From: Bacillota bacterium
Lineage (GTDB): Bacteria > Bacillota_C > Negativicutes > JAEYSJ01
Length of the DNA: 64,000 bases
Direction of reading: 5' to 3'
Assembly: GCA_023434855.1 (NCBI GenBank)
Contig: JAEYSJ010000066.1
Coordinates: forward strand, 1-64,000
Of this stretch, positions 33,889 to 63,445 are shown one piece after another; the stretch's first letter is position 1; each line of letters starts with the position of its first letter. The notes under the pieces were generated by a model, which ran no database searches, was not told where the DNA came from, and saw only the letters and a program-made list of their open reading frames with translations. A program made the translations under genes and the position numbers.

Positions 33889-33920
33889 CGCACCTCCTGT
33901 GGTGAGGAAGCAATAGGTTT

Positions 33921-35237
33921 TTATTTTTTCTTGCCGGCCTGGTAGGCTTTATCTAACAACTGGATGACATGGACGGCATCGGCATTGATGTTGTTTTGCA
34001 CCAGGCCGTCGGTAATATGCATCCTGCATGTCCCGCAGCTTGTTGCCACTGTATCTGCTCCGGTTGAAGCAATATCGGCAATTTTCCGGTCATTAATTTT
34101 CCGGGAAATTTCATAGTTGGCAAGGCTGAAGGAGCCGCCAGATCCGCAGCAGCGGGCAGGTTCTTTCATTTCTACAAACTTTAAACCGGGAATGGCTTTA
34201 AGGATTTCTCTTGGTTGTTTGACTACTTTAATGCCGCGGGCCATGTGACAGGGGTCATGCATTGTAACAGTGGCATTTACCTGACCTAAATTGTTTTTGC
34301 GGAATTTAGCTACATCAACCAGAAATTCACTGATTTCATAAGTTTTTTTTGCCAGAATTTCTGCTCTGGTTTTTATTTCCGGATCTTCGCGGAAAAGGTG
34401 AGGGTATTCAATTTTGAATGCTTCAGCACAGGAACCGCAGGCTGTTACAATATAATCGAAATCGTATTTTTCAAATGTTTCAATGTTATGCCTGGCAAAC
34501 ACTTTGGCCAGTTCAACATCCCCGGACATGTTTACCGGTGTGCCGCAACAATGCTGCAAGGCCGGCATGGTGACTTCTATATTATTTTCCTTAAGTACAT
34601 TTAATACTGCCTGCCCTACGTCAGTATATACATAATTCAAGGTACAACCGGTGAAAAAGCCTACCTTCATTCTCGGCTTGGCCACTTTAATTGTTTCCGG
34701 ATACTTGTTTCTTAGAGGTGTTGCCGCAAAAGGAGCGGTTACGCGTTTGCGGTCCATTCCCGGCATGGGGAAGCGGGCTATTTGCGCCATTTTACCAGGG
34801 AGTTTTTTAAAACTCAATGGCCCAAATAAGCCGGCAAGGCGTAGGCTTAGATCAAATAACAGCCTGTTTTTCAGCAAGGCAAATACTTTTTGTTTAATCG
34901 GATGCAGGCCGCGGGCTTTCACCGCTGCCTGGCGGCCACGGACGATAAGCTCGTCGGCCGGTACACCGCAGGGACATTTAGCGGCGCAGGCTTTACAGGT
35001 AAGACACTTGGCCATTGCCTGGTCAAAGCCTGCACTGATGTGAATAACACCTGTTAGAACAGCCTCCATAAGTGCCAGCTTGCCGCGGGCTACTGCCGAC
35101 TCTTTACCCAACTCTTTATAGATCGGACATACTTCCATACAGTTACCGCATTTCATACAATTCGCCAGGGCATCCCGGACGTCTTTTAGCAGTTCTTTAT
35201 CTTGCGCAAGTATATCTTGCGCGCTAATCTCCATCAT
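33921..35237 (-). CDS. glcF: GlcF-like iron-sulfur subunit of a 2-hydroxyacid dehydrogenase
   Basis: It has 438 aa. The N-terminal pair of [4Fe-4S] motifs is CMKCGNCMEVCP and CLTCKACAAKCP. The C-terminal half has two CCG domains (HCCGTPVNM, RCCGSGGSF) with TACGSC and TSCGTC. It passes electrons from GlcD to a downstream acceptor. The start overlaps the glcD stop; ATG 35237 is chosen over GTG 35246, which would sit on the GGGAGAG ribosome site. It is convergent with the sensor kinase gene. The substrate (glycolate or lactate) cannot be decided from sequence. Confidence 0.88.
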   Translation of the reverse strand: MMEISAQDILAQDKELLKDVRDALANCMKCGNCMEVCPIYKELGKESAVARGKLALMEAVLTGVIHISAGFDQAMAKCLTCKACAAKCPCGVPADELIVRGRQAAVKARGLHPIKQKVFALLKNRLLFDLSLRLAGLFGPLSFKKLPGKMAQIARFPMPGMDRKRVTAPFAATPLRNKYPETIKVAKPRMKVGFFTGCTLNYVYTDVGQAVLNVLKENNIEVTMPALQHCCGTPVNMSGDVELAKVFARHNIETFEKYDFDYIVTACGSCAEAFKIEYPHLFREDPEIKTRAEILAKKTYEISEFLVDVAKFRKNNLGQVNATVTMHDPCHMARGIKVVKQPREILKAIPGLKFVEMKEPARCCGSGGSFSLANYEISRKINDRKIADIASTGADTVATSCGTCRMHITDGLVQNNINADAVHVIQLLDKAYQAGKKK

Positions 35238-35239
35238 AG

Positions 35240-36622
35240 TTAACACTCTCCCACAAGTTTTCCAGGATTAAGGATCAAGTTAGGATCAAGTGCCCGTTTG
35301 ATGGCTTTCATGGCTTCCATAGCGACCAGGCCATGTTGCTCCTGCATCCATTGAAGCTTACCCAGTCCGATGCCGTGTTCGCCACTTAATGTTCCGCCCA
35401 GCTTGATAGCCGTTGAAAACATTTCATCCATTGCATTATATACCCGTTCCATTTCTTCTTTATTGCGGAGATCACATACAATGGTTGGATGCATATTGCC
35501 GTCGCCGGCATGGCCGAATGTGCCGATGGTTACATTATATTTAGTGGCAATATTACTTACTGCGCGAAGAAAATCGGGCACTTTGCTGCGCGGCACAGTA
35601 GCATCTTCCACATAGGTAGTAGGACGCAGTTTAGCCAATGCCGGCAAAGCGGCCCGGCGGGCAGCCCAAAGCTTATCACGCTCGCCGTCATCTTTGGCAA
35701 TCTGGATGGCATCAGCTTTGTTTTGTTCTAATACCTCCAGGACTTTGGCGGCTTCCTTTTCCACTACCGCCTGTACGCCGTCTACTTCAATAAGCAGTAC
35801 AGCCTCGGCATCCAGGGGCAGGCCCACATGGGCGTAGTCTTCTACGGTTCGGATCGTGGCGTTATCCATGATTTCGAGAGTGGCCGGAATAATCTTGGCA
35901 GCTATGATGCCTGATACGGATCTGCCGGCATTGTCCAAATTCTTAAAAATAGCCATCATGCTTTTTTTGGTTTCAGGCGCCGGCACCAATTTAACGATAA
36001 TTTTAGTAATTACTCCCAATGTGCCTTCAGAGCCGGTGAATAATTTTGTCATATCATAACCGGAAACGTCTTTCACATTTTTACCGCCGCAGTTCATTAT
36101 ATTGCCATTCGCTAAAACAACTTCCATTCCCATGATATAATGTTTGGAAACGCCGTATTTCAGACCGCGCAGGCCGCCTGCGTTCTCACCGGCGGTGCCG
36201 CCTACCGTAGCGGTAGCTACAGTACCGGGATCGGGAGGATAAATCAGGTTGAATTTGGCGATCTCCTTGTTTAAATCACCGACAATGACACCTGGTTCAA
36301 CAGTTGCCGTCAAGTTTTCCAGGTCGATTTCAAGGATTTTATTCATGCGGGTCATTAACAGTACAATGCCACCTTTGGTGGGAACGGTGCCGGCACTTAA
36401 ATTGGTGCCTGAACCACGGGTATATACAGGAATTTTGCCAGCATTGGCAAATGCAAGAACTTTAGATACTTCATCGGTATTCGCCGGAATAACCACCGCC
36501 TCCGGCATATGGGCATGGCCGGGCGTGGCATCATAGGAATAGCAATGTAAATCTTCTAGGCTTGTCAAAACATGCTCCTGGCCAACAATATTTTTTAGTG
36601 TCTTAATGTCAGTAATTTGCAT
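35240..36622 (-). CDS. glcD: GlcD-like FAD-linked 2-hydroxyacid dehydrogenase
   Basis: Oxidises a D-2-hydroxyacid such as glycolate or D-lactate to the 2-oxoacid with FAD. It has 460 aa: an FAD-binding PCMH domain (TRGSGTNLSAG, VEPGVIVGDLNKE, TVGGTAGENAGGLRGLKYG) and a C-terminal oxidase cap (GTFGHAGDGNMHP, SGEHGIGLGK). There is no Etf pair beside it, so unlike the Acetobacterium lactate dehydrogenase it seems to use GlcF as its FeS partner. It is co-directional with the response regulator upstream and glcF downstream. Confidence 0.88.
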   Translation of the reverse strand: MQITDIKTLKNIVGQEHVLTSLEDLHCYSYDATPGHAHMPEAVVIPANTDEVSKVLAFANAGKIPVYTRGSGTNLSAGTVPTKGGIVLLMTRMNKILEIDLENLTATVEPGVIVGDLNKEIAKFNLIYPPDPGTVATATVGGTAGENAGGLRGLKYGVSKHYIMGMEVVLANGNIMNCGGKNVKDVSGYDMTKLFTGSEGTLGVITKIIVKLVPAPETKKSMMAIFKNLDNAGRSVSGIIAAKIIPATLEIMDNATIRTVEDYAHVGLPLDAEAVLLIEVDGVQAVVEKEAAKVLEVLEQNKADAIQIAKDDGERDKLWAARRAALPALAKLRPTTYVEDATVPRSKVPDFLRAVSNIATKYNVTIGTFGHAGDGNMHPTIVCDLRNKEEMERVYNAMDEMFSTAIKLGGTLSGEHGIGLGKLQWMQEQHGLVAMEAMKAIKRALDPNLILNPGKLVGEC

Positions 36623-36791
36623 ATATCCATTCTCCTCAGCTCAATTTAGCAAGATTAGTGGAGCCAAACTATTATCTGTTTATTATTTTCGCTTAAATTT
36701 GGCAACACGTAAATCAGGCAGACACTGTAAGCTGAAGTAAGAAATATGCTTAAAATCCTGTAAGATAAAATCCTACAGGAAATGATTAAAT

Positions 36792-37448
36792 TTATGTGTT
36801 TATAAGTTTATTTTGGATAGCATAATTAACCAATTCTGATTTTTTCCGGACATTAAGTTTTTGCATAATGCGGGAGCGGTAAGTATCAACAGTTTTAACA
36901 CTAATAGATAACATTGCAGCTATTTCACTGTTGGTATGCCCTTGAGCCAGCAACCGGAGTACTTCGCGTTCCCGGGTACTTAATGTGATATAAGGATTTT
37001 TCGGGTCCGGTTCGTTAACAGGTGCCCGGAGCAGGCTGTCAATAAGGGTCTGGGATATGACCTCGTTAAGGTACTTTTTACCGGAATGAATTTTAATAAT
37101 TCCTTCGATCAGCTCCGTATCGGCTGATTTTTTCAAAACATAGCCGTTTGCTCCGGCTTGCATGACTTCTTTAATGTATTCTTCCTCGTCATACATGGTC
37201 AGCACTAAAATACGGCAGGGCAGGCCACGGGATCTGATTTCCCTGATACAGTCTACCCCATTCATGCCAGGCATGGATAAATCAAGCAGCAAAACGTCGG
37301 GGTTCAATTTCTCTACCAGTTTTATCGCTTCAAGGCCATCGCCTGCTTCGCCGATTACTGCAAATTGCGGAGAGCAGTGAAGCAGGGCTTTCAGACCTGA
37401 CCGCAGTACGGCATGGTCATCGGCAATTATTATACTAATTTTACTCAT
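36792..37448 (-). CDS. NarL/LuxR-family response regulator
   Basis: It has 218 aa with a receiver domain (acidic DD near residue 10, phospho-acceptor Asp in DVLLLDLSMPGMNG, Lys in YVLKKSAD) and a C-terminal LuxR helix-turn-helix (LSTREREVLRLLAQGHTNSEIA, SVKTVDTYRSRI). The start at 37448 follows AAAGGAG. It lies upstream of glcD on the same strand, and the HisKA_3 kinase at 32779 is the natural cognate, so the pair probably controls glcDF. Confidence 0.9.
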   Translation of the reverse strand: MSKISIIIADDHAVLRSGLKALLHCSPQFAVIGEAGDGLEAIKLVEKLNPDVLLLDLSMPGMNGVDCIREIRSRGLPCRILVLTMYDEEEYIKEVMQAGANGYVLKKSADTELIEGIIKIHSGKKYLNEVISQTLIDSLLRAPVNEPDPKNPYITLSTREREVLRLLAQGHTNSEIAAMLSISVKTVDTYRSRIMQKLNVRKKSELVNYAIQNKLINT

Positions 37449-37474
37449 AAACGTCTCCTTTATCATAATTAAAC

Positions 37475-37895: not shown

Positions 37896-37917
37896 GTAGT
37901 TAACTATATTGCAAAAA

Positions 37918-38174
37918 GCGATGAAAGGAAGAGTACGCTATTTTTCAGGCTGTGCAGAGAGGAGATTCCCGGCTGAAAAGTCTCCCGGCAGGATTAGCGG
38001 AAGGTCATCCTTGAGTTGTCCCACTGAAATTCAAGTAGGTGTGGCCGTAGATGCCTCGTTACGGCAGGTGTAGTCCGGATGCGTATAATTAATTATAGTT
38101 TATCCAACACCGGAGAAGCAAGGTGGTACCACGAAAGCAGCTCTTTCGTCCTTACAGGACGAAGGAGCTTTTTT
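37918..38174 (+). promoter_or_regulatory. T-box leader, valine specifier
   Basis: tRNA-sensing antitermination leader. Stem I base AAGGA/TCCTT encloses the specifier loop, whose 3' side reads GGTCA. The codon GTC (38004-38006) specifies valine. The upper helix CGCTA/TAGCG and the AGAGGAG region are present. The conserved T-box AAGGTGGTACCACG is at 38120-38133. The terminator AGCTCTTTCGTCC/GGACGAAGGAGCT plus T-run covers about 38138-38174. Uncharged tRNA-Val should favour readthrough into valS. The specifier agrees with the downstream gene. Confidence 0.93.
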
Positions 38175-43645: not shown

Positions 43646-43662
43646 TTGTGAAATTTCTCACA
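43646..43662. promoter_or_regulatory. Rex-like operator upstream of the sensory hydrogenase operon
   Basis: TTGTGAAATTTCTCACA is a near-palindrome (TGTGA-N6-TCACA) similar to the Rex consensus TTGTGAANNNNTTCACAA. A further TTGTGATT half-site follows at 43663. It lies about 40 bp before the first gene of the operon, and rex itself is encoded at 50234. Binding is inferred. Confidence 0.5.
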
Positions 43663-43702
43663 TTGTGATTTTCTTGCAAGCAATTTATTAGGAGGATTGC
43701 CG

Positions 43703-44068
43703 GTGAAACTATTTGAAGTACAACAAGAGTTGCGTGCTGAGCTTGTGTGTGGCGCGGAGTGGGTTGACAGAGAAGTGGGAAATGTCTGCGGCGCCGGTTT
43801 AATGAGTGATGTTTTGGCATGCACCAAAGAAAGAACGTTGTTGCTAACCGGTTTAAATAATATTCAAGTTGTGCGCACCGCTGAGATGAGCGACTTAGTT
43901 GCAATAGTTTTTGTATGTGGAAAACGTCCTGGCCCCGAATTGGTAAAATTGGCCCGGATAAAGGGAATTCCGTTATTTGTTGCGGAATGTTGTTTGTATG
44001 AAGCTTGCGGAATATTGTATAAGAATGGTTTGATAAGTTGTCATAAACGTGGTGAATGCTGTGAATAA
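43703..44068 (+). CDS. DRTGG-domain protein (first copy)
   Basis: It has 121 aa with a DRTGG-like fold (VGNVCGAGLMSDVLACTKERTLLLTGLNN... and ...KARIKGIPLFV type pattern: ARIKGIPLFVAECCLYEACGIL). DRTGG modules occur next to CBS or kinase domains and in [FeFe] hydrogenase regulatory clusters; their ligand is not established. GTG 43703 fits AGGAGG at 43691-43696. It overlaps the GHKL ATPase gene downstream and belongs to a seven-protein hydrogenase-type operon with one more DRTGG copy. Confidence 0.75.
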   Translation: MKLFEVQQELRAELVCGAEWVDREVGNVCGAGLMSDVLACTKERTLLLTGLNNIQVVRTAEMSDLVAIVFVCGKRPGPELVKLARIKGIPLFVAECCLYEACGILYKNGLISCHKRGECCE

Positions 44069-44489
44069 TGAGCAGGCGATCGTACTAGAATTTACTCTAA
44101 GCGCTTCAGATTTTGACGTAGCAGGCGAAGCATCAAGCAAAATTAAACGAGTACTGCAGCAAATAGGGGTGCGGGCAGATATTGCCCGTCGCATAGCGAT
44201 TGGAGCCTATGAAGCAGAGATGAATGTCATTATTCATTCGTATGGCGGTTTAATGCGGGCCGCAATTTATTCCGACCGTACTGAACTTTTGGTGGAAGAT
44301 GAAGGCCCGGGTATTGCCGATATAAATCTTGCCATGCAGGAGGGCTATTCAACAGCGCCTGACTATGTCAGGGAAATGGGCTTTGGTGCAGGTATGGGTT
44401 TACCCAATATGTCGCGTTGTGCAGATAAATTCGATATCAAATCAGAATCCGGTGCCGGAACGAAAATTAGTATGACAATTTTTCATTAA
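44061..44489 (+). CDS. RsbW/anti-sigma-type GHKL ATPase
   Basis: It has 142 aa with a stand-alone HATPase_c domain of the anti-sigma factor kinase type. The N-box is GAYEAEMNVIIHSYGG, the G1 box VEDEGPGI, and the G2 box MGFGAGMGLPNMSR. There is no His dimerisation domain. The start is one of the GTG codons 44049, 44052 or 44061; 44061 has GGTGA just upstream and overlaps the preceding stop by 8 bp. It is placed directly before the sensory hydrogenase and may phosphorylate a partner or act as a switch. Confidence 0.8.
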   Translation: MNNEQAIVLEFTLSASDFDVAGEASSKIKRVLQQIGVRADIARRIAIGAYEAEMNVIIHSYGGLMRAAIYSDRTELLVEDEGPGIADINLAMQEGYSTAPDYVREMGFGAGMGLPNMSRCADKFDIKSESGAGTKISMTIFH

Positions 44490-44565
44490 GACCCTTCCGG
44501 TTGTATGCACTATATATAGTTTTTAAGAATTAGGAAACTAACCCAAAGATTGCGTGGTGGTAAAG

Positions 44566-45891
44566 ATGGAAGAGTATTATCTTTCAGTGCGGTTAATTGA
44601 TGACCGTTGCAAAGGATGCGTAAATTGTATTAAGCGCTGTCCTACTGAAGCGATTCGTATTCGCGGTGGTAAGGCCCGTATTACCGAGTCACGCTGCATT
44701 GATTGCGGCGAGTGCATACGGAACTGTTCAAGTCATGCCAAATCCGCTATTACCGATTCTTTAGCTGATCTTGAAAATTACAAATACAATATAGCTTTAC
44801 CAGCTCCTACACTATACGCCCAATTTGGTTTGGAATTTTCCATTGAAGCGATTTTAGCCGGCTTATTAAAACTAGGGTTTGATGAGGTGCATGAGGTAGC
44901 ATTAGGAGCAGAAATTGTATCTTTAGCTATACGAGATTATTTGCAGCAGGCAGATATTAAGCGTCCGGCGATTTCTTCGGCGTGTCCGGCCGTGGTGCGT
45001 TTAATACAAGTTAAATTTCCTGAACTTATTGAACATTTGGTACCTATTAATCCACCTGTTGAGGTAGCTGCCAGATTGGCTCGTACAGAATATGCCAGGA
45101 AACATGCTGTCGATCCCGCCGAAGTTGGAACATGGTTTATTACTCCATGCCCGGCAAAAATGACAGCCGTAAAGCAGCCTCTTGGTTCCAAGACATCACA
45201 CATTTCAGGAGCAATCGCCATATCGCAAATATATGGCGATTTACTAAGAGTATTATCACAAGGTGACAATAATATTGACTGTCAGCGCGCCTCCAGGCTT
45301 GGAATTGGCTGGGCGGTAGCAGGCGGCGAAACGGATTCGGTTGAGCAGGCAAATACTTTGGTTGTACACGATATTGCCAATGTTAGTGGTGTGTTAGAGC
45401 AAGTGACCATGGGAAAGCTTAACGATATTGACTATATTGAGACATTGGCATGTGCCGGAGGTTGTATCGGCGGACCGCTAACGGTGGAAAATCGTTTTGT
45501 TGCTGAGCATCGCATGAAGCAGCGGCTGCAAAAATTGGAGGCTGAATATGCTGCTTTAGGGAAAATGCCTTTGCAGGGCTATCATCCCTGTGAGCTTGGT
45601 GTAGCTGAGCGGCGGAATATTGAACCACGCCCTATTATGTGCCTTGATGAAGATATTTTTAAGGCTATGTATAAAGTTGAAATCATGGAAAAAACGCTGG
45701 AAAATTTACCTGGCTTGGATTGTGGGTCATGCGGCTCACCTAACTGCATGGCGTTGGCTGAAGATATTGCTCAAGAGAGTGCGAGCGAAACTGATTGTGT
45801 GTTTAAACTTAGAGAACGAGTACGGGATTTAGCAAAAGAAATGATTAATCTGGCGGAAAAATTGCCGCCGTCGTTAGAAAAAGAACCTTAA
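44566..45891 (+). CDS. Sensory-type [FeFe] hydrogenase-like protein
   Basis: It has 441 aa. The N-terminus has two [4Fe-4S] clusters (C15, C18, C21, C25; C44, C47, C50, C54). The H-cluster domain follows with modified motifs: L1 is SSACP (A139, C140) instead of TSCCP, L2 is TPCPAKM, and L3 is ACAGGCIGGP. C386-x2-C389-x4-C394-x16-C411 is an extra C-terminal FeS motif like that in AcsC and in group D (HydS) proteins. This layout and the loss of the first L1 cysteine match sensory rather than catalytic hydrogenases. Start ATG 44566 with GGTGG upstream. It is probably an H2 or redox sensor feeding the neighbouring GHKL proteins; this is inference. Confidence 0.82.
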   Translation: MEEYYLSVRLIDDRCKGCVNCIKRCPTEAIRIRGGKARITESRCIDCGECIRNCSSHAKSAITDSLADLENYKYNIALPAPTLYAQFGLEFSIEAILAGLLKLGFDEVHEVALGAEIVSLAIRDYLQQADIKRPAISSACPAVVRLIQVKFPELIEHLVPINPPVEVAARLARTEYARKHAVDPAEVGTWFITPCPAKMTAVKQPLGSKTSHISGAIAISQIYGDLLRVLSQGDNNIDCQRASRLGIGWAVAGGETDSVEQANTLVVHDIANVSGVLEQVTMGKLNDIDYIETLACAGGCIGGPLTVENRFVAEHRMKQRLQKLEAEYAALGKMPLQGYHPCELGVAERRNIEPRPIMCLDEDIFKAMYKVEIMEKTLENLPGLDCGSCGSPNCMALAEDIAQESASETDCVFKLRERVRDLAKEMINLAEKLPPSLEKEP

Positions 45892-45928
45892 TTTTTCTTA
45901 TATTTTGGTATAAAAGGAATGGTGTTTC

Positions 45929-46270
45929 ATGACCGTACAAGAAATTGTAGATTTACTGCAAGCTAAAATTGCAGCTGGCAATGAGAAAACTGATAACGTC
46001 ATTAGCGGCGGATATGCTTCTGATTTATTAAGTAATGTGATGGGACAGGCAAGGCTTGGCAGCATCTGGGTGACCATGCAGGCGCATCAGAATATTGTCG
46101 CTGTCGCATCCTTGCTGGGTTTATCAGCAGTAATTATCGCCGGTGGTGTACAACTCAATAATGAAACCATTCTTAAAGCTGAAAAGGAAGGTATACCCTT
46201 ATTAACTACTTCATTGTCGGCTTTTGAAGTAATTGGTCTACTGTATGACGCAGGTATTAAGGGTAGCTGA
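45929..46270 (+). CDS. DRTGG-domain protein (second copy)
   Basis: It has 113 aa and consists of one DRTGG domain (VISGGYASDLLSNVMGQARLGSIWVTMQAHQNIVAVASL, ending with LTTSLSAFEVIGLLYDAG; blocks named, not continuous). It begins right after the sensory hydrogenase gene with AAAGGA upstream. It is clearly related in design to the copy at 43703 but has low identity. Function is unknown; presumably a small-ligand sensing or adaptor part of the same system. Confidence 0.78.
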   Translation: MTVQEIVDLLQAKIAAGNEKTDNVISGGYASDLLSNVMGQARLGSIWVTMQAHQNIVAVASLLGLSAVIIAGGVQLNNETILKAEKEGIPLLTTSLSAFEVIGLLYDAGIKGS

Positions 46271-46468
46271 TTTGACCTGTGGCTTCAGTCATGTATAGCA
46301 TTAACAACTTTCCAGCAGTTTTGAAACTACATTTATTTTTAAATAATAACCAATTTTGTCTTAAACTTTTCAAAATCTAAATGGGCAAAATTCTGCGAAA
46401 GGCGGTGGTATAAACCACTATACAGTTCGTCGGCAGTCATTCGTAAACTTTTCATGAGGAGGAAGAAC

Positions 46469-46963
46469 ATGAACAGCAATCAATCCAAATGCTGCTGTGG
46501 CAGCAATGTCAACCAATTTGCTCAATTGGACGAAGTTTTCAAGAAGTATCAGGGAGTTAAAGGAGCGCTTATTCCGATATTGCAGGAAGCGCAAAATTCT
46601 TATGGCTATCTGCCTAGAGAAGTCATCCAGTATATCGCTGAAAAAACGCGTGTTCCAGTGAGCCAGATTTACGGTGTGGTAACTTTCTATGCCCAGTTTC
46701 ATCTTAACCCCCGTGGCAAAAATATTATCCGTGTTTGCCAGGGTACCGCCTGTCACGTGCGTGGCGCCAAAGCTATATTGCAGGCAATTGAAGATAAACT
46801 GAGCATTAAAGCTGGTGGGACCACAGAAGACCTTAACTTTACCCTGGAAACTGTGGCCTGTATCGGCGCGTGTGGTCTGGCTCCTGTATTAATGGTGAAT
46901 GATGAAACTCATGGCCGTCTTACGCCAGAAGTAATTCCGGAAATTCTAGCCAAATACGCATAA
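46469..46963 (+). CDS. NuoE/HydC-like [2Fe-2S] protein
   Basis: It has 164 aa of the thioredoxin-like [2Fe-2S] family: VCQGTACHVRG and CIGACGLAPV hold the cluster, and IYGVVTFYAQF is the family core. The start at 46469 follows GAGGAGG at 46456-46462. The N-terminus carries three cysteines in a row (KCCCG), not part of the usual cluster. It is the second NuoE paralogue in the window. It should pair with the NuoF-like protein at 47911. Confidence 0.88.
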   Translation: MNSNQSKCCCGSNVNQFAQLDEVFKKYQGVKGALIPILQEAQNSYGYLPREVIQYIAEKTRVPVSQIYGVVTFYAQFHLNPRGKNIIRVCQGTACHVRGAKAILQAIEDKLSIKAGGTTEDLNFTLETVACIGACGLAPVLMVNDETHGRLTPEVIPEILAKYA

Positions 46964-46968
46964 AGATC

Positions 46969-47535
46969 ATGCGCGAACTATCTTTGCATATTCTCGACTT
47001 GGTGCAGAACTCTATTGAGGCGGGCGCTTTACAAGTTATACTGGAAATTATTGAAGATACTAAGGTTAGTGACACCATGACAATTCGCGTAACTGACGAC
47101 GGTCGTGGGATGGACGAAGCTACCCGTAAAACGGCGTTTGACCCGTTTGTAACTACCAGGGCTACCTGTCGCGTGGGGTTGGGTTTATCGCTTATTGATA
47201 TGTCTACTAAACGGTGCGGAGGTTATGTGACCATAGATTCTGCTCCCGGACGTGGAACGGCAGTTGAAGCTCTATACAAACATAGTCATTTGGACCGCCA
47301 ACCGCTTGGGAATATTGTAGAGACTGTGAAAACGATTGTGATTGCTAATCCTGATTTAGCTTTTCGTTACTGCCATACTGTTAATAATAATACTTTTTCT
47401 TTTGCTACACAGGAAATTACTGGGATTCTTGGGAATATATCATTGACGCACCCGGACGTGCTTGTCTGGTTGCATGGATATTTGACTCATGGTTTAATGA
47501 ATTTGTATGGAGGTGTACAATATGAAAACAATTGA
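46969..47535 (+). CDS. GHKL ATPase (histidine-kinase-like) protein
   Basis: It has 188 aa. The HATPase domain starts at once with the N-box LDLVQNSIEAGA, then G1 TDDGRGMDE, F-box FDPFVTTR and G2 VGLGLSL. The C-terminal 70 residues are a separate small domain without recognised family. No phospho-accepting His domain is present. It is 6 bp after the NuoE gene and overlaps the ferredoxin gene. Such proteins recur in hydrogenase operons of Clostridia and Negativicutes; their targets are not known to me. Confidence 0.8.
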   Translation: MRELSLHILDLVQNSIEAGALQVILEIIEDTKVSDTMTIRVTDDGRGMDEATRKTAFDPFVTTRATCRVGLGLSLIDMSTKRCGGYVTIDSAPGRGTAVEALYKHSHLDRQPLGNIVETVKTIVIANPDLAFRYCHTVNNNTFSFATQEITGILGNISLTHPDVLVWLHGYLTHGLMNLYGGVQYENN

Positions 47536-47872
47536 AGATCTGAAACGTTTGCGTAAACAGGTAGAGGCACAGACCCGGGTGCGTCATGCCAGCGACAAGC
47601 AAATTATAGTTGGAATGGGTACATGCGGCATTGCGGCAGGAGCCCGTGAAGTTATGTCAGCAATTTTTGACGAATTGGTCAAACAGAAAATTGAAGATGT
47701 CACTGTGTTTCAAACTGCCATGGGTGTATGTGGAAAAGAAGTGCTGGTCGATGTTGTGTTACCTAATCAGCCCCGTGTTACTTACGGCAAAGTAACTCCG
47801 GCCGATGTTCCGAAAATTATAGCTGAACATATTGTTAACGGACGTGTTGTAGAGGGACTTGTTTGTCGGTAA
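47522..47872 (+). CDS. Thioredoxin-like [2Fe-2S] ferredoxin
   Basis: It has 116 aa with GMGTCGIAAGAREV and FQTAMGVCGKEV as the first and second cysteine regions. It resembles the N-terminal domain fused to the NuoF-like protein at 20249. It overlaps the preceding gene, with GGAGGTG at 47509-47515 setting ATG 47522. It is likely an electron carrier between the NuoE and NuoF partners. Confidence 0.85.
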   Translation: MKTIEDLKRLRKQVEAQTRVRHASDKQIIVGMGTCGIAAGAREVMSAIFDELVKQKIEDVTVFQTAMGVCGKEVLVDVVLPNQPRVTYGKVTPADVPKIIAEHIVNGRVVEGLVCR

Positions 47873-47910
47873 GTTGATGAATAATTTTTTGACTATTGGG
47901 AGGGAAAAAA

Positions 47911-49701
47911 ATGGAACATATCAGAGCCCATGTGCTTATTTGCGCTGGTACAGGCTGTGTGTCTTCAGGCTCGAAAAAAGTTGAGGCCGCTTTAAGCGCC
48001 CAGTTAGCCCAAAAGGGTCTTGATAAAGAAGTTAAGATAGTCGAAACCGGCTGTCACGGTTTTTGCGAAATGGGTCCATTGGTAATTGTATATCCGGAAG
48101 GCGTATTCTATGTACGGGTGCAGGAAGAAGACGTACCCGAAATTGTCGAGGAACATCTCTATAAAGGCCGCATCGTAGAACGCTTGTTATTTAAAGAAAC
48201 AGAAACCCAGGAAAAGATTGCTAACTATAACGAAATTATTTTCTATAAAAAGCAAATGCGGATGGTTTTGGGCAATTGCGGACATTTAGATCCGGAGAAA
48301 ATCGAAGAATATATTGCTGCAGGCGGATATGAGGCCTTAGCTAAGGCAGTTACGCAGATGAAGCCTGATGAAGTTGTGGAAGAAGTAAAGAAATCCGGTT
48401 TGCGTGGCCGGGGAGGCGGCGGTTTCCCGACAGGTATGAAATGGAGCTTTACCCGTAACGCTCCCGGCGAGAAAAAATATGTAGTATGTAACGCTGACGA
48501 AGGCGATCCGGGCGCATTTATGGACCGTAGCGTACTGGAAGGCGATCCCCACCGTGTAATTGAAGGTATGGCGGTGTGTGGTTATGCTGTCGGTGCCGAT
48601 GAAGGCTATGTTTATGTACGGGCCGAATATCCGTTGGCTATTAAACGTTTGAGAATTGCTATCAAGCAGGCCGAAGAAATGGGAATGCTTGGTGATAATA
48701 TATTTGGTTCAGGTTTCAACTTCCATTTAAAAATTAAAGAAGGTGCCGGCGCGTTCGTATGCGGCGAAGAAACTGCGCTGTTGAATTCTATTGAAGGCAA
48801 ACGCGGAATGCCGCGCCCCCGTCCGCCATTCCCGGCGGTTTCCGGTTTGTGGGCCAAACCGACTAATATTAATAATGTTGAGACTTTTGGCAATGTTCCG
48901 CAAATCATTACCAAAGGCGCCGACTGGTATGCTTCTATTGGTACTGAGCGTAGTAAAGGTACTAAAGTATTTGCGTTGACTGGTCGAATCAATCATACCG
49001 GCCTGGCAGAAGTGCCGATGGGCATTTCCATGCGGGAAATTATTTTCGATATCGGCGGTGGTATCCAAGGCGGCAAGAAATTTAAAGCGGTACAAATAGG
49101 CGGTCCGTCAGGTGGCTGTTTACCGGAGAACCTTCTTGATTTGCCTGTTGATTATGATTCACTCATTCAGGCAGGTGCTATGATGGGTTCCGGCGGTTTG
49201 GTTGTTATGGATGAAACTACCTGTATGGTGGACGTTGCCAAGTTCTTCCTTAACTTTACGCAAGCCGAATCTTGCGGTAAATGTACTCCTTGCCGTGAAG
49301 GCACCAAGCGGATGCTGGAAATTCTTACCCGTATTACCGAAGGTAAGGGTGAGTCCGGTGATATAGCACTGTTAGAGAACATGGGTAAAAATATTAAAGC
49401 CACTGCCTTGTGCGGGTTAGGTCAGACTGCACCGAATCCGGTTTTAAGCACACTGCATTACTTCCGGCACGAATATGAAGCCCATATCAACGAAAAACGC
49501 TGTCCGGCAGGCGCATGTACTGCTATGGCTGAATACTCAATTACCGATAAGTGTAAAGGCTGTACCAAGTGTACGAAAGCTTGCCCGGTTGGTGCAATCA
49601 GCGGCGAGAAAAAGGCTATGCATGTTATTGACAAGGCTGTGTGTATTAAGTGCGGCGCGTGTGAATCAACTTGTCCGTTCCAAGCTATTGTCAAGGGATA
49701 A
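47911..49701 (+). CDS. NuoF/HydB-like NADH-binding FMN protein
   Basis: It has 596 aa: an N-terminal [2Fe-2S] domain (ICAGTGCVSSG), FMN/NADH domain (GLRGRGGGGFPTGMKW, CNADEGDPGAFMDRS, GAGAFVCGEETALL), SLBB, [4Fe-4S] CGKCTPCR, and two C-terminal [4Fe-4S] motifs (CKGCTKCTKACP, CIKCGACESTCP). The start at 47911 has GGGAGGG upstream. It is the last gene of the operon and is followed by a terminator, so no catalytic HydA is co-transcribed. It could use the HydA at 59305 or work with the sensory hydrogenase. Confidence 0.9.
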   Translation: MEHIRAHVLICAGTGCVSSGSKKVEAALSAQLAQKGLDKEVKIVETGCHGFCEMGPLVIVYPEGVFYVRVQEEDVPEIVEEHLYKGRIVERLLFKETETQEKIANYNEIIFYKKQMRMVLGNCGHLDPEKIEEYIAAGGYEALAKAVTQMKPDEVVEEVKKSGLRGRGGGGFPTGMKWSFTRNAPGEKKYVVCNADEGDPGAFMDRSVLEGDPHRVIEGMAVCGYAVGADEGYVYVRAEYPLAIKRLRIAIKQAEEMGMLGDNIFGSGFNFHLKIKEGAGAFVCGEETALLNSIEGKRGMPRPRPPFPAVSGLWAKPTNINNVETFGNVPQIITKGADWYASIGTERSKGTKVFALTGRINHTGLAEVPMGISMREIIFDIGGGIQGGKKFKAVQIGGPSGGCLPENLLDLPVDYDSLIQAGAMMGSGGLVVMDETTCMVDVAKFFLNFTQAESCGKCTPCREGTKRMLEILTRITEGKGESGDIALLENMGKNIKATALCGLGQTAPNPVLSTLHYFRHEYEAHINEKRCPAGACTAMAEYSITDKCKGCTKCTKACPVGAISGEKKAMHVIDKAVCIKCGACESTCPFQAIVKG

Positions 49702-49729
49702 TTCATTCAATAAATATGTTGCTACTAGT

Positions 49730-49757
49730 AAAAGCGGCCATTTTAGGCCGCTTTTTT
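49730..49757 (+). terminator. Terminator of the sensory hydrogenase operon
   Basis: AAAAGCGGCC / GGCCGCTTTTTT, with an 8-base loop (atttta type) and T-run. Typical rho-independent terminator. Confidence 0.9.
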
Positions 49758-49780
49758 CTTATAAAGCAGGAGAGACCGAT

Positions 49781-49934
49781 TAACCGCCAAGAACGCCAAG
49801 GAATATTTTAATATTTTCCAGTGAGATAATTATTCTTAACCGGGGAAATACATCCCTAAAAGGGCCAAGCATCTAAACATTTAATTAATAAAATCCAATG
49901 TTTTTCTTGGCGACCTTGGCGTCCTTGGCGGTTA
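49781..49934. repeat. Inverted-repeat element R2 with CCAAG-type arms
   Basis: The left arm TAACCGCCAAGAACGCCAAG is answered by a right arm ending CCTTGGCGTCCTTGGCGGTTA, with about 110 bp between. The arms are built of the unit CGCCAAGG repeated at 9-base intervals. No frame is present. A second copy lies at 59013-59208. Confidence 0.75.
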
Positions 49935-50233
49935 GACATGTCTTTAATACTGTGTCGATTATCAAATGAATATTCAAAGACCTTGGACGGACCTCTGCGG
50001 TTAGTCGTATCCCCAGCGACTGGGTAGCGTTTTGCTTAACCGTGTTATTAAATGTGTTTTGTGGTATAATAATACAACAAAAATTATATTAAAATTATAT
50101 TATATTAATAAATTGCAGTGTTGACCAGCAGGATTTTAGCGGCAACAGTGAGAATAGTTAATAAAGTAACTTGCTTTATAGACGTAACACACTCTATAGT
50201 GCTTATATTTTGCCTGTTAGGGGGCTAGTCGGT
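49935..50233 (+). other. Spacer upstream of rex with remnant repeat and promoter
   Basis: CCTCTGCGGTTAGTCGTATC (49992-50011) repeats the right end of the element at 28621. An extended -10 box TGGTATAAT lies at 50062-50070 with no strong -35. The rest is AT-rich leader with no coding frame; AGGGGG (50219-50224) is the rex ribosome site. Confidence 0.5.
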
Positions 50234-50884
50234 TTGAAGGGAAATATCGCAATTTCTAAAGCAACTGTTGACCGTTTGCCGGTATATTTTCGTACCCTGC
50301 GACTTATCCGGGAAGAAGGCGTGGAAATAATTTCTTCTGAAGAATTAGGCAGACATCTGTCTATCACACCGGAGCAGATTCGTAAGGATTTGGCCTCATT
50401 TGGTCAGTTTGGCAAAAAAGGTGTAGGTTATTATGTGAGCGAACTAATCCGTAATATTAGCGAAATACTAGGGTTGCATTATAATTTAAATATTTCAATT
50501 GTGGGAGTAGGCCATTTGGGCTGGGCCTTGGCTAATTATCGGAATTTTGTTAACATGGGTTTCAATCTTGTGGCAATTTTTGATATTGATCCAAGTAAAA
50601 TAGGTTTACGCATAAATGGTGTAAGGGTCACGCATTTAAATGACTTGTCAGAAATTGTAAAAGAACGGGGAATTCATATTGGGATAATCACCGTACCTGA
50701 GAACTACGCACAGAACGTAGCTGACCAATTAGTGGAGGCAGGAGTAAAGGGAATATGGAATTTTGCCCCGCGAAAATTAACCGTGCCTGATAATATACGT
50801 ATTGTTGATGAAGATTTAACAGTTGGGTTAAGCAGTCTTTCGTATTACCTTACTAAGGATTTGGCTGAAAACGGTAAAAAGTGA
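50234..50884 (+). CDS. rex: Redox-sensing transcriptional repressor Rex
   Basis: It has 216 aa: a winged-helix DNA-binding domain (VDRLPVYFRTLRLIREEGVE, ITPEQIRKDLASFGQFGKKGVGY) and a Rossmann NADH-binding domain (VGVGHLGWAL; Asp in FDIDPSK), then a swapped C-terminal helix. It binds DNA when NADH/NAD+ is low and releases it when NADH rises. The TTG start at 50234 gives the normal family length; ATG 50171 would add 21 residues with no ribosome site. It is placed right after the NADH-linked hydrogenase operon. Confidence 0.93.
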   Translation: MKGNIAISKATVDRLPVYFRTLRLIREEGVEIISSEELGRHLSITPEQIRKDLASFGQFGKKGVGYYVSELIRNISEILGLHYNLNISIVGVGHLGWALANYRNFVNMGFNLVAIFDIDPSKIGLRINGVRVTHLNDLSEIVKERGIHIGIITVPENYAQNVADQLVEAGVKGIWNFAPRKLTVPDNIRIVDEDLTVGLSSLSYYLTKDLAENGKK

Positions 50885-59304: not shown

Positions 59305-61038
59305 TTATTCACACTTAGGGTAGTTGCCCCGCGGTGTGTAGTGAGTGTGAAGCAGTTCGTGGGATTTGTGTCCCAGCGGTTTTTCGAGGAATGTTTCGTA
59401 AAGTTCTTTAACAGCCGGGTTTTCATGGGACTTGCGCAGTTCCATGCGCTCGTCTTCACAGTACATGGCATTGCAGCGTTTTGTACGAATATCAGGGTCG
59501 CAGGAGATGGGTGCGCCGCCGCCACCGATACAGCCGCCGGGGCAGCACATGACTTCGATGAAATGATAGTCGGCTTCACCTGTGCGAATTTTGTCCAGAA
59601 CTTTCCGGGCATTGCCCAGACCGTTAGTAATTGCTACTTTTACCGGAATTTCGCCTACCTGCACGGTAGCTTCTTTCACGCCGGTGAGACCACGGACTCC
59701 CTTGAAGTTGATATCAGCAAGAGGCTTACCGCTGACGACTTCGGAGAGGGTACGCAGAGCAGCTTCAGTTACGCCGCCGGAGGTACCAAAGATTTGGCCG
59801 GCGCCGGTGCCAATGCCCAGAGGAGCATCATATTTTTCTTCAGGCAGATTTCTTAGGTCAAATCTGGCTTGCTTGTACATGCGTCCCAGTTCACGGGTTG
59901 TGAGCACTACATCAACGTCTTGATAGCCGCTGCTGAACATTTCCGGTCTGGTGCACTCGTATTTTTTGGCGGTACAAGGCATGATGGAGACGCTGAAGAC
60001 ATCAGCCGGGTCAATGCCCATTTTCTTGGCGTAGTAAGTTTTAGCAAGAGCGCCAAACATTTGTTGTGGCGATTTGCAAGTGGAAAGATGGTCTAAAAGA
60101 TCAGGGTAGAAGTGCTCAATGAACTTGATCCAGCCTGGGCTGCAGGAAGTAATCATCGGCAGGGTGCCGCCTTTAGTAACCCGCTGTAAGAGCTCATTGC
60201 CTTCTTCCATAATTGTCAGGTCAGCCGAGAAGTTAGTGTCAAAGACCTTGTCAAAGCCTAAGCGACGCAGACCGGCAACCATTTGTCCGGTGGTGATTTC
60301 ACCTGGCTCGCCGCCGATAAGTTCACCGATTTGTACTCTGGGGGCAGGTGCGGTTTGGACAATGACATGTTTTTTGGGATCAGCGATGGCTGCCCAGACT
60401 TTATCAGTATCATCTTGTTCCTGAATAGCGGCAGTAGGACAAACTAAGGAGCATTGGCCACATTGAACGCACTCCATGTTAGCTAACTGCTCATTGAAAG
60501 CAGGGGCAATAAGAGAGTTAAAACCTCTATTTTCGGCTGTAAGAGCCTGTACTGTCTGAACATTGGTGCAGACCGAAATGCAGCGGCGGCAGAGGACACA
60601 CTTGCGTGGATCTCTCTTAATGGCCGGGCTGGATGCGTCAATCGGGTATTCGGTTTTCTGACCTTCATTAAACCGTACGTCACTTACACCGAACTCTTCC
60701 GCCAAATCTTGCAATTCGCAATTCTTATTCCGTACACAGGTGAGACATTCCATCGGATGGTCTGAGAGAATCAATTCCAGAATTAACTTGCGGGCTTTGA
60801 TGACTTCCGGAGTGGCGGTACGCACAACCATTCCTTCGGCAACCGGAGCCACACAAGCGGGTACCAAAGTTCTAGCGCCCTGAACTTCAACCATACAGAT
60901 CCGGCAGGCGCCGATAACGTTGATATCCTTCAGGTAACAAAGGGTAGGTATATTGATTCCCACTTTTTTAGCGGCCTCCAGGATTGTACTTCCTGTTTCC
61001 ACCGCAACTGTCTGGTTATCAATTGTCAATGTTATCAT
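59305..61038 (-). CDS. hydA: [FeFe] hydrogenase catalytic subunit
   Basis: Makes or uses H2 in the electron-bifurcating HydABC complex. It has 577 aa: [2Fe-2S] (C34, C45, C48, C62), His-ligated [4Fe-4S] (H94, C98, C101, C107), and two [4Fe-4S] (C147-C157, C190-C200). The H-cluster domain has L1 TSCSPGW (C299, S300), L2 MPCTAKKYE (C355) and L3 MCCPGGCIGGG (C499, C503). The C-terminal small-subunit domain is fused. It is the HndD-type architecture. The start follows GGAGGGG. It is the last gene of hydC-hydB-hydA. Confidence 0.95.
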   Translation of the reverse strand: MITLTIDNQTVAVETGSTILEAAKKVGINIPTLCYLKDINVIGACRICMVEVQGARTLVPACVAPVAEGMVVRTATPEVIKARKLILELILSDHPMECLTCVRNKNCELQDLAEEFGVSDVRFNEGQKTEYPIDASSPAIKRDPRKCVLCRRCISVCTNVQTVQALTAENRGFNSLIAPAFNEQLANMECVQCGQCSLVCPTAAIQEQDDTDKVWAAIADPKKHVIVQTAPAPRVQIGELIGGEPGEITTGQMVAGLRRLGFDKVFDTNFSADLTIMEEGNELLQRVTKGGTLPMITSCSPGWIKFIEHFYPDLLDHLSTCKSPQQMFGALAKTYYAKKMGIDPADVFSVSIMPCTAKKYECTRPEMFSSGYQDVDVVLTTRELGRMYKQARFDLRNLPEEKYDAPLGIGTGAGQIFGTSGGVTEAALRTLSEVVSGKPLADINFKGVRGLTGVKEATVQVGEIPVKVAITNGLGNARKVLDKIRTGEADYHFIEVMCCPGGCIGGGGAPISCDPDIRTKRCNAMYCEDERMELRKSHENPAVKELYETFLEKPLGHKSHELLHTHYTPRGNYPKCE

Positions 61039-61106: not shown

Positions 61107-62810
61107 TTATTCTTCAAATTCGCAAACGTTGGCACAACATTTATGCTCTTTAATATGCTCTTCATACTCATTTCTGAAATGACGGATTGTGCTCAAGATG
61201 GGGTTGGGCGCAGTCTGTCCCAAACCGCACAGTGCAGTCGATTTCATCATGTGGCCGATCTCTTGCAACAATTCAATGTCGCCTTCTCTGCCTTTACCAG
61301 AGGTGATACGCTCCAGAATTTCCATCATCCGCTTGGTGCCGATACGGCAGGGTGTACATTTACCGCAGGATTCGTCGACACAGAAGTCCATAAAGAACTT
61401 GGCAATATCCACCATGCAGCTGTCTTCATCCATAACGATCATGCCGCCGGAGCCCATAATTGCACCAAGTGCTCCCAGAGAATCATAATCAACAGGAGTA
61501 TCTAAATAAGCTTCAGGAATGCAACCGCCGGACGGACCACCGGTTTGAACAGCCTTAAATTTCTTTTTGCGTTGGATGCCGCCGCCAATGTCAAACACGA
61601 TTTCCCGCAAGGTAGTTCCCATTGGAACTTCCACAATACCGGTGTTAGTAATTTTACCAGCCAAGGCGAAAACTTTGGTACCTTTGCTCTTTTCGGTGCC
61701 AAGGGAAGAGTACCAGTCAGAACCCAGACGAATGATTTCCGGTACGTTGGCCCAGGTCTCAACATTGTTGAGGACGGTAGGTTTGCCCCATACACCGGAG
61801 ATGGCAGGGAATGGCGGTCTGGGTCTTGGTTCGCCCCGTTTGCCTTCAATAGAAGTTAACAGCGCGGTTTCTTCGCCGCAGACAAAGGCGCCTGCGCCGA
61901 TCCGTATTTCGATGTCGAAATTAAAGCCGGCACCAAAGATGTCTTTACCTAAGAGACCGAATTCCCGGGCCTCTTTAATAGCATGTTCCAGTCTTTCAAT
62001 TGCCAGCGGGTATTCCGCCCGTACATAAACATAGCCTTGCTCAGCGCCGATAGCGCGGCCGCAAATAACCATACCTTCGATAACACTATGAGGGTCGCCT
62101 TCAAGAACAGATCTGTCCATAAATGCGCCCGGGTCACCTTCGTCACCGTTACATGCTACATATTTGGGGTAACCGGGAGCGGCTGCAGTAAAGCCCCATT
62201 TCATACCGGTAGAGAAGCCGCCGCCGCCACGACCACGCAGCCCGGATTTTTTCACTTCTTCAACAATGTCTGCAGGCTGCATTTGGGTAACGGCTTTGCC
62301 AAGTGCGGCATAACCGTTCTTAGCGATGTAATCCTCAATAGAAGTTGGATCAATGTCAAAGTTGTTGCGCAGAACGATTTTTTGTTGCTTTTTGAATAAG
62401 TCGATATCATGAACACAAGGGGTAGGTTCTGTTGAACCAGCACTTCTGTATAACAGGCGATTTACCAAGTTGCCTTTCATGATGTGTTCAGTTACGATTT
62501 CCTCAGCATCTTTTGGCTTTAATCTGCGATAAAAGGTCGCTTGAGGATAAATAATGGCGACAGGACCCATATCACACGGTCCCATGCAACCGGTTAGAAT
62601 AATTTGCACTTGATCGGCAATACCATGTTTTGCAAGAGCTTCTTTCATGGCATCCACAACATCCGTACATTTTGAAGAAATACAACCAGCGCCGCCGCAC
62701 ATCATAATATGGGCTTTTTCGGTAGCTGAGGGAACGCCTTCGCGGATTTTAAGGGCTTCCTGTCTGGTCGATTTAATCTTTGCCAGTTCGTCCAAAGATT
62801 TTATTTTCAC
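61107..62810 (-). CDS. hydB: HydB: NADH/FMN subunit of the bifurcating hydrogenase
   Basis: It has 567 aa: an N-terminal [2Fe-2S] domain (MCGGAGCISSKC), FMN/NADH domain (GLRGRGGGGFSTGMKW, CNGDEGDPGAFMDRS, GAGAFVCGEETALL) and [4Fe-4S] CGKCTPCR. The protein ends shortly after with HKCCANVCEFEE. It thus lacks the two C-terminal [4Fe-4S] motifs present in the paralogues at 20249 and 47911. A GTG start fits GGAGGTG upstream. It binds NAD(H) and FMN and exchanges electrons with HydA and HydC. Confidence 0.93.
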   Translation of the reverse strand: MKIKSLDELAKIKSTRQEALKIREGVPSATEKAHIMMCGGAGCISSKCTDVVDAMKEALAKHGIADQVQIILTGCMGPCDMGPVAIIYPQATFYRRLKPKDAEEIVTEHIMKGNLVNRLLYRSAGSTEPTPCVHDIDLFKKQQKIVLRNNFDIDPTSIEDYIAKNGYAALGKAVTQMQPADIVEEVKKSGLRGRGGGGFSTGMKWGFTAAAPGYPKYVACNGDEGDPGAFMDRSVLEGDPHSVIEGMVICGRAIGAEQGYVYVRAEYPLAIERLEHAIKEAREFGLLGKDIFGAGFNFDIEIRIGAGAFVCGEETALLTSIEGKRGEPRPRPPFPAISGVWGKPTVLNNVETWANVPEIIRLGSDWYSSLGTEKSKGTKVFALAGKITNTGIVEVPMGTTLREIVFDIGGGIQRKKKFKAVQTGGPSGGCIPEAYLDTPVDYDSLGALGAIMGSGGMIVMDEDSCMVDIAKFFMDFCVDESCGKCTPCRIGTKRMMEILERITSGKGREGDIELLQEIGHMMKSTALCGLGQTAPNPILSTIRHFRNEYEEHIKEHKCCANVCEFEE

Positions 62811-62953: not shown

Positions 62954-63445
62954 TTACTGGTACGCCTCCAGCATTGCCGGGATAGTTTCCGGTGTCAGAC
63001 GGCCATGAACATCTTTGCCATCGATGATTACAGCAGGGGCCAAACCGCATGCTCCGATGCAGCGTACCAATTCCACGGTAAACCGGCTGTCTTCGGTAGT
63101 CTGACCGGGTTTAACACCAAGCACTTCTCTAAGTGTTTTAATAACCATATTGCTGCCTTTTACATAACAGGCCGTTCCTGTGCATATACTAACTTTATGC
63201 CGTCCTTTCGGCGTCAAGGAGAAGAAGGCATAAAATGTGCAAACCCCGTAGACCTCTTGTATTGATAATCCGAGTCCCTGGGCTATTTTGACCTGAACCC
63301 ATTTGGGTAAATACCCGATTAGGTTCTGGGCCTTTGTCAATACCTGAATCAAGCTGCTTGGCTGTCCCTTATACGGCGCAATGATTGCATCCAATTGCTT
63401 AGTCAATTCATCTTCGCCGCCGCACTTACATTTACATTCTTCCAT
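62954..63445 (-). CDS. hydC: HydC: NuoE-like [2Fe-2S] subunit of the bifurcating hydrogenase
   Basis: It has 163 aa with CTGTACYVKG and CIGACGLAPAVI as the [2Fe-2S] ligands and VYGVCTFYAFF as the family core. The first residues (MEECKCKCGG) contain three extra cysteines. The start follows GGGAGGT. First gene of the hydCBA operon, 143 bp before hydB. Confidence 0.92.
   Translation of the reverse strand: MEECKCKCGGEDELTKQLDAIIAPYKGQPSSLIQVLTKAQNLIGYLPKWVQVKIAQGLGLSIQEVYGVCTFYAFFSLTPKGRHKVSICTGTACYVKGSNMVIKTLREVLGVKPGQTTEDSRFTVELVRCIGACGLAPAVIIDGKDVHGRLTPETIPAMLEAYQ

Follow-up and report, generated by a model that had tools for sequence, protein, structure and literature searches.

Why should an operon keep a putative sensory [FeFe] hydrogenase together with the diaphorase half of a bifurcating-type hydrogenase, when no catalytic hydrogenase is encoded in it? 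This question is raised by a 64,000-nucleotide stretch of the Negativicutes contig JAEYSJ010000066.1 (assembly GCA_023434855.1, positions 1 to 64,000; hereafter the window), where eight consecutive plus-strand genes occupy positions 43703 to 49701. They encode, in this order, DRTGG1, a SpoIIAB-like ATPase (here called RsbW-like), HydS, DRTGG2, HydC, a GHKL ATPase (GHKL2), an HndB-like protein and HydB. A first-pass annotation made from the sequence alone had listed these genes and divided them into a signaling-type first half and a diaphorase-type second half. The domains found and the comparison with relatives bear out both the list and the division, and the same genes stand in the same order in most of 135 relatives. 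The explanation that we prefer, with slightly better than even confidence, is that a HydS-HydABC operon of the type found in Sporomusaceae, passed down vertically, was stripped of hydA and a PHP gene, that a second hydrogenase (HydABC*) replaces its catalysis, and that the remainder is probably working.

We collected loci from three sources: the best 80 of at least 566 matches from a scan of genome contigs, 31 places in 28 genomes of the Anaerospora hongkongensis order, and 60 loci chosen for contig room among the matches listed for the 157 positive genomes of 398 searched in the phylum of genome G029. Profiles built from these same loci served to annotate them. Of the 171 loci, we set aside 11 as duplicates and another 25 that failed a HydS motif filter (too strict), which left 135 for counting. 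The RsbW-like gene adjoins HydS in 122 of 131 loci. DRTGG1, free or fused, is present in 110 of 131, a tally made by a length rule that includes at least one ATPase (L178) not confirmed as a fusion by domain search. DRTGG2 and the PHP gene occur in 103 and 109 of the 127 testable loci, respectively; tallies of small ORFs are lower bounds, as overlap rules hide some genes (e.g. DRTGG2 of L110-L112 and L116). HydB is found in 100 of the 114 loci with room, with GHKL2 5′ of it in 97/101 loci and HydA directly 3′ of it in 98/101 testable loci (exceptions L072, L127 and L218). These counts therefore give the usual cluster as DRTGG1-RsbW-HydS-DRTGG2-PHP-HydC-GHKL2-HndB-HydB-HydA. By sequence comparison, the window operon is a reduced version of this widespread, partly described cluster, and the co-occurrence of its gene set in other genomes, suggested for checking by the first-pass annotation, extends to most of the relatives counted. 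Searching the open literature, we found no description of the full module among the papers listed, and the single paper that turned up for DRTGG together with hydrogenase was unrelated; subscription papers lay outside this search, and an earlier mention is possible.

The cluster varies among relatives. The HydB found in HydS operons can be of the bifurcating type (AFM residues) or of the non-bifurcating type (TFK). L226 and L229 read HydS-DRTGG-HndB-HydB-HydA, with no RsbW, DRTGG1, PHP or GHKL2 within the stretch fetched. In L218 (genome G184), the HydS operon has a non-bifurcating-type HydB followed directly by Rex, with no HydA at the locus. In L218 (4622-5080) and L235 (4602-5090), from the clade with non-bifurcating HydB, the gene 3′ of GHKL2 codes for a conserved protein some 150-160 aa long that begins with a Cys-rich stretch; we take it to resemble an RseC-type redox protein.

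In Sporomusales, FolC and IctB lie upstream of the cluster, and Rex, CoAT, MCM, MeaB and MmdA lie downstream. Both flanks of the window operon are syntenic with those of other Sporomusales, and exactly two genes, hydA and PHP, are gone. HydA occupies the slot 3′ of HydB in 25 of the 26 order places with room. Performing tblastn with 24 PHP and 24 HydA proteins, we detected no remnant of either gene in the two gaps (best E 0.13). Because HydA follows HydB so regularly in relatives, and because the window has a HydA gene at a distance of 9.6 kb, we read the missing hydA as a secondary, lineage-specific loss beside a replacement, and not as the design of the system. The earlier statement that there is no catalytic hydrogenase thus holds for the operon but not for the window, which carries a complete HydABC of another lineage 9.6 kb downstream. 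We rejected the idea that PHP loss is special to the window, as PHP is also missing from 8 of the 101 loci that have HydB and enough room. We also dropped the idea that PHP loss coincides with DRTGG1 damage in a second lineage: L036 lacks PHP, but its DRTGG1 is complete, with an unusual start codon and not truncated.

The lost-hydA slot also holds a palindromic repeat element with a 21-nt inverted repeat (95%) at 49781-49934, and a second copy lies at 59024-59199, just downstream of HydA*. The element ends in GATTAACCGCCAAG(G/A)ACGCCAAG, and this end motif is matched 8 times in the window, where 0.10 matches are expected. The exact 17-base end pattern was found in 0 of 177 fetched loci.

What supplies catalysis instead? 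A six-frame motif scan of the window returned one other H-cluster motif set besides HydS, namely HydA*, a catalytic group A6 [FeFe] hydrogenase accompanied by HydB* and HydC* (Table 1). In the tree, HydA* is placed outside the operon-HydA clade (29 Sporomusales rows, support 100/100), adjoining genome G011 only; on this ground we rejected that HydA* is the relocated operon hydA. The operon HydB stands inside the 29-row Sporomusales HydB clade (98 SH-aLRT, quick tree). Close relatives of HydA* and HydB* occur in just one of the 28 order genomes, G011 (89% and 90% identity; second tandem copy, 79%), the others reaching at most 64% and 66%, respectively. HydABC* was likely acquired laterally and likely supplies the catalytic hydrogenase. 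G011 and G010 (1.3 Mb) are the HydS-free genomes among the 28, G011 being the only large one; no HydS was found anywhere in G011 at E 1e-60. FolC, IctB and Rex adjoin there, the spacing from IctB to Rex being 266 bp, and the whole operon is lost. In L174 of the same genome (12138-15883), CoAT, MCM and MeaB are also gone between Rex and MmdA.

Table 1. Features of the HydS operon, its surroundings and the second hydrogenase locus in the window.
Feature	Position	Strand	Remarks
Rex-like operator TTGTGAAATTTCTCACAT	43646..43663	+	predicted; 2 mismatches to TTGTGAANNNNTTCACAA; 40 bases 5′ of DRTGG1
DRTGG1	43703..44068	+	GTG start; Pfam DRTGG 23.9 bits, just below cut-off of 25.2
RsbW/SpoIIAB-like GHKL ATPase	44049..44489	+	HATPase_c_2
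HydS, group D (M2e) putative sensory [FeFe] hydrogenase	44554..45891	+	Fe_hyd_lg_C and C-terminal FeS domain
DRTGG2	45929..46270	+	Pfam DRTGG 31.6 bits, exceeds cut-off
PHP slot	46271..46453		183-bp gap without gene; relatives carry PHP-domain gene (PF02811) exactly here
HydC (NuoE/HndA-like)	46454..46963	+	2Fe-2S_thioredx 188 bits
GHKL2 ATPase	46969..47535	+	HATPase_c; without His domain
HndB-like small thioredoxin-fold subunit	47507..47872	+	conserved part begins at 47522; relatives named HndB
HydB (NuoF-like), bifurcating type	47896..49701	+	C-terminal two-[4Fe-4S] domain
Lost-hydA slot	49702..50170		holds terminator-like hairpin and palindromic repeat element
Terminator-like hairpin	49730..49755	+	10 pairs; 3′ of HydB
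Rex, redox-sensing repressor	50171..50884	+	NCBIfam 267.8 bits; next gene 3′ of operon, also in relatives
HydA*, catalytic group A6 [FeFe] hydrogenase	59305..61038	-	NCBIfam NF040763 917 bits, cut-off 765
HydB*	61107..62810	-	without C-terminal two-[4Fe-4S] domain
HydC*	62954..63445	-	

The loss of hydA raised the question of whether the remaining genes are still under constraint. Comparing the window with 24 relatives with complete clusters, hand-picked from the 31 order places, we find distance ratios of 0.98 for RsbW, 1.03 for GHKL2, 1.07 for HydS, 1.10 for HydC, 1.11 for DRTGG2 and 1.14 for HydB. The operon genes span 0.98-1.17 except HndB (1.61). The flanks span 1.00-1.53 (FolC 1.00, IctB 1.01, Rex 1.34, MeaB 1.34, CoAT 1.36, MmdA 1.36 and MCM 1.53, the MmdA and MCM comparisons including ORFs cut at locus ends). 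Of the columns invariant in the other sequences, few have changed in HydB (8/366), HydC (3/75) and HydS (5/160), and none in RsbW (0/49) and DRTGG2 (0/27). DRTGG1 has changed in 4/39 columns (relatives in at most 1) and HndB in 12/53. For GHKL2, whose distance ratio is 1.03, the window with 3/51 changed columns ranks highest of 25. In the flanks, Rex (7/91), CoAT (13/306) and MeaB (9/155) are also changed above the median relative, so the window lineage appears somewhat fast overall.

The HndB-like protein is a thioredoxin-like ferredoxin relative for which a Pfam scan gave nothing above cut-off. It has lost the first Cys of its TGCxGxC motif (TAMGVC in the window), which is kept in 117 of 120 HndB homologues among the matches listed (120 of 2798). 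Two of these, P0156 and P0172, have a changed motif with both cysteines kept. Only P0121 among the matches listed shares the Cys loss (TALDAC); it comes from a sister lineage (93% identical HndB, 7 other contigs) whose HydS is 91% identical to that of the window. Faster evolution of the whole remnant was rejected for 6 of the 8 genes, with GHKL2 a borderline case, and accepted for HndB and, more weakly, for DRTGG1. It follows that the loss of hydA was accompanied by HndB decay and weaker DRTGG1 changes, whereas HydBC and the pair of sensor and kinase were retained. The constraint on the remaining genes makes it probable that the remnant still works.

Which signal would a working remnant read? 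Sensory [FeFe] hydrogenases have long been proposed as H2 sensors. A Pfam scan of the window HydS showed two [4Fe-4S] motifs at its N-terminus and no PAS domain up to E 0.1. Mapping by motif, we find in SSACP an alanine (Ala143, invariant in 24 relatives) at the position of the proton-transfer Cys (C299 of CpI), and in TPCPAK a threonine in place of Met353; HydS of T. wiegelii, 49% identical to that of the window, reads SPCAAK. The C-terminal Cx2Cx4Cx16C (C390, C393, C398 and C415) is fully invariant in 24 sequences. In the available text of Land 2020 (PMC8163306), group D (M2e) is marked by a non-conserved C299, a Met353 to Ser/Thr change, this C-terminal motif, the two N-terminal [4Fe-4S] motifs and the lack of a PAS domain. 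The window HydS has these sequence traits of group D (M2e), whose H2-sensor role stands as a proposal in the printed passages available. As far as its accessible passages go, the TamHydS-type group D system (PMC13104023) has the same domain layout and active-site changes, no PAS domain and an adjoining histidine-kinase-like ATPase gene. The window operon differs from it in lacking hydA and the PHP gene, and the DRTGG, PHP and GHKL2 genes are not named in those passages. Group C HydS/HfsB is likewise described, in the available text, as a sensory-type hydrogenase with a presumed regulatory role toward a catalytic enzyme, but it carries the PAS domain that the window HydS lacks (PMC8924675, PMC11837493).

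For the downstream step, an unusual phosphorelay had been suggested from the sequence. The domain scan does not support this suggestion: the eight genes showed no HisKA, Hpt acceptor, receiver or sigma-factor domain, and SpoIIAB is the closest match of the first ATPase (profile matches to SpoIIAB structures such as 1til, E 3e-12). SpoIIAB is a protein-serine kinase family. With the SpoIIAB/RsbW partner-switching kinases, the window ATPase has the fold family and the catalytic-box residues in common: E55, N59, D84, G86, G88 and the GFGAGMGL box are invariant in 26/26 aligned sequences. E55 and N59 align with SpoIIAB and are presumably the catalytic Glu and Asn of the N box. Unlike these kinases, it scores 57.5 bits against an NCBIfam equivalog cut-off of 135 and has HydS and DRTGG1 as neighbors, without a linked sigma factor or STAS-type antagonist. 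GHKL2 is predicted (model pLDDT 91.1) to consist of a MutL/histidine-kinase-type GHKL domain and then a small alpha/beta region, with N14, D43, G45, G47, G70-G72 and G96-T97 invariant in the alignment of relatives. Both proteins keep ATP-site motifs in their invariant columns, which argues against GHKL proteins without ATP binding. The AlphaFold model of DRTGG1 (pLDDT 92.1) matches the solved DRTGG protein 2ioj (TM 0.79), and by this model DRTGG1 has the DRTGG fold.

Ten relatives carry natural DRTGG1-RsbW fusions of 267-270 aa, with rex as the next gene upstream. Together with the RsbW-HydS adjacency, these fusions suggest that HydS and the ATPase form a unit, the ATPase being acted on by HydS. 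L235 keeps the module and GHKL2, 5′ of Rex, without HydC, HydB or HydA, so that GHKL2 could be part of the signaling side. Scanning 20 flanking genes in 7 HydS loci without HydABC, we found no sigma factor or STAS antagonist. The scanned neighbors of HydABC-free modules were unrelated genes with no dedicated output gene, except at L051, where genes for a histidine kinase and a response regulator adjoin an RsbW-HydS pair that has neither DRTGG nor PHP. We consider a HydS-gated serine-kinase switch likelier than a His-Asp phosphorelay. HydS would bind H2, the presumed signal, through its H-cluster and pass its state to the SpoIIAB-like ATPase, which with DRTGG1 would form one regulatory unit. 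The ATPase would most likely phosphorylate or release a protein partner, for which DRTGG2 is the first candidate. Such a switch would tune whichever hydrogenase is present.

A second input may come from Rex. Of 5 Rex-like sites in the window at ≤3 mismatches (4.3 expected), the one upstream of DRTGG1 is the only site with 2. Among 27 loci, a Rex-like site lies 5′ of DRTGG1 in 7, 15 and 25 at ≤2, ≤3 and ≤4 mismatches, where mononucleotide shuffles give 0.03, 0.43 and 3.7 expected loci, respectively. The consensus and the binding of Rex upstream of FeFe hydrogenase genes are from Caldicellulosiruptor, as given in the available text of PMC6391272. The hydrogenase operons of that Rex regulon likewise have a Rex-type operator upstream and rex adjoining; in the window, the operator is a prediction. 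This conserved operator suggests that Rex would tie transcription of the operon to NADH/NAD+. At the other end, the proposed closing terminator stands as far as the hairpin is present, but scans of this kind returned 12 sites against 7.1 expected in shuffles, and the call alone is weak.

What, then, does the diaphorase half do? Mapped by motif in two of three regions, the operon HydB has the AFM/VF residue pattern and two C-terminal [4Fe-4S] motifs. In the available text of Losey (PMC7311640), bifurcating HydB has A and M near the NADH site and F near FMN, and according to that of Furlan (PMC9499530), the C-terminal two-[4Fe-4S] domain is conserved in all characterised bifurcating [FeFe] hydrogenases. 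HydC, the HndB-like protein and HydB correspond to subunits of HndABCD/HydABC, with bifurcating residues and C-terminal domain kept in HydB. The operon differs from these complexes in that HydA is absent from it (motif scan and gap tblastn) and the HndB-like subunit is minus one cysteine. HydBC may be kept as an NADH/ferredoxin-handling diaphorase that docks on a catalytic partner encoded at another site, for which HydA* is the nearest candidate. HydB* has the same bifurcating-type residues as the operon HydB but lacks the C-terminal domain, a combination seen in 4 of 72 HydB rows (HydB*, L163 and L170 of G011, and L127).

A bolder version, which we regard as a long shot, is that the orphan HydBC docks in trans on HydA*B*C*, whose HydB* is without the mobile domain, to make a split bifurcating hydrogenase. 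G029, from another lineage, shows a comparable arrangement, with a HydS operon with domain-bearing HydB and no HydA, and about 31 kb away on the same contig HndB, HydC, a domainless HydB and HydA, this second HydB having non-bifurcating residues. Among the other loci without HydA, L127, the second locus of G012, is limited to HydS-HndB-HydB, lacks HydC as well and has a resolvase gene as its neighbor; the full operon is elsewhere in that genome (L114). The genome of L235 (G279) has two further HydA genes, while in the genome sequence examined for L218 (G184) full-length HydA was not found. These data do not prove trans assembly. If it were true, one hydrogenase would be switched between NADH-only and bifurcating modes by making or not making a spare diaphorase, whose operon would also provide the H2 sensor, its serine kinase and a Rex site.

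Several observations weigh against the preferred explanation of a reduced, working operon beside HydABC*. The operon domain scan linked no sigma factor, anti-sigma antagonist or receiver to the module. According to the abstract of PMC13104023, the C-terminal cluster of TamHydS was unresponsive to H2. HydA* has its own HydB*C* and hence does not need the orphan HydBC. As the data are a 64-kb window, a hydA or PHP gene may also lie elsewhere in the genome. Since G011 has lost the whole operon, the remnant may moreover be on its way out. This last point leads to the rival that we find possible though doubtful, namely stepwise decay after HydABC* took over, with PHP, hydA, and then HndB and DRTGG1 lost and the rest to follow. 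The relaxed HndB and DRTGG1 fit this course, as does G011, which has two tandem HydABC* copies, FolC-IctB-Rex joined and no HydS. However, the few changes in HydB, HydC and HydS and the unchanged invariant columns of RsbW and DRTGG2 speak against decay; all ORFs are intact, terminator and operator are present, and the sister lineage keeps both HydS and HndB.

The other rivals explain why HydBC persists, or deny the losses. Recruitment of HydBC by a formate dehydrogenase as its NADH/ferredoxin module is suggested by G011, where HydC-HydB (64% to the window HydB) is followed by molybdopterin formate-dehydrogenase-like ORFs. We judge it unlikely, as the scanned window ORFs include no unpaired formate dehydrogenase and the 1183-aa molybdopterin protein of the window has its own HydC and HydB. 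It is quite improbable, too, that HydS is wired to the diaphorase, replacing HydA in an H2/NADH-reading complex with HydBC(-HndB). L127, with its HydS-HndB-HydB alone, could represent such a complex, but its resolvase neighbor means that it could be a fragment. Furthermore, the N-terminal [2Fe-2S] (Fer2_4) and NADH-G-type domains of HydA* are missing from HydS, HydA fills that place in almost all relatives with HydB, and HydS occurs without any HydB in 14/114 loci with room. Finally, hydA and PHP could have been dropped from the contig during assembly. This is hardly credible, since the gaps are clean unrelated sequence with a terminator-like hairpin, a repeat element and no gene fragments, and the HndB decay recurs in the sister protein P0121 on 7 other contigs.

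Other loci were noted alongside. At 19723-25561, the window encodes a HydC-like and a HydB-like protein and the 1183-aa GltD/NuoG-molybdopterin fusion, beside CODH/ACS and methylene-THF reductase genes; this set looks like the Sporomusa-type transhydrogenase StnABC, as far as the available text of PMC7483475 describes it. A T-box leader (37912-38156, 99.7 bits) lies upstream of ValS. In L166 of G011, the formate-dehydrogenase-like ORFs that follow HydC-HydB, maybe split by an in-frame TGA, also lie upstream of ValS. Positions 32761-37466 hold genes for a sugar-diacid-recognition histidine kinase, an FAD-linked oxidase, a CCG/Fe-S protein (glycolate- or lactate-oxidase-like) and a LuxR-type response regulator.

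We know of no output for the PAS-free group D enzymes. The comparison gives their signaling module a defined parts list, DRTGG1-RsbW-HydS-DRTGG2-PHP, and this module also accompanies non-bifurcating HydB or stands without HydABC. It separates the constrained parts (HydBC, HydS, RsbW and DRTGG2) from those relaxed upon the loss of hydA (HndB and DRTGG1). The window is a natural knock-out, in which hydA and PHP are gone and HydS, RsbW, HydB and HydC remain. With this natural strain and the parts list, the signaling question therefore becomes directly testable.

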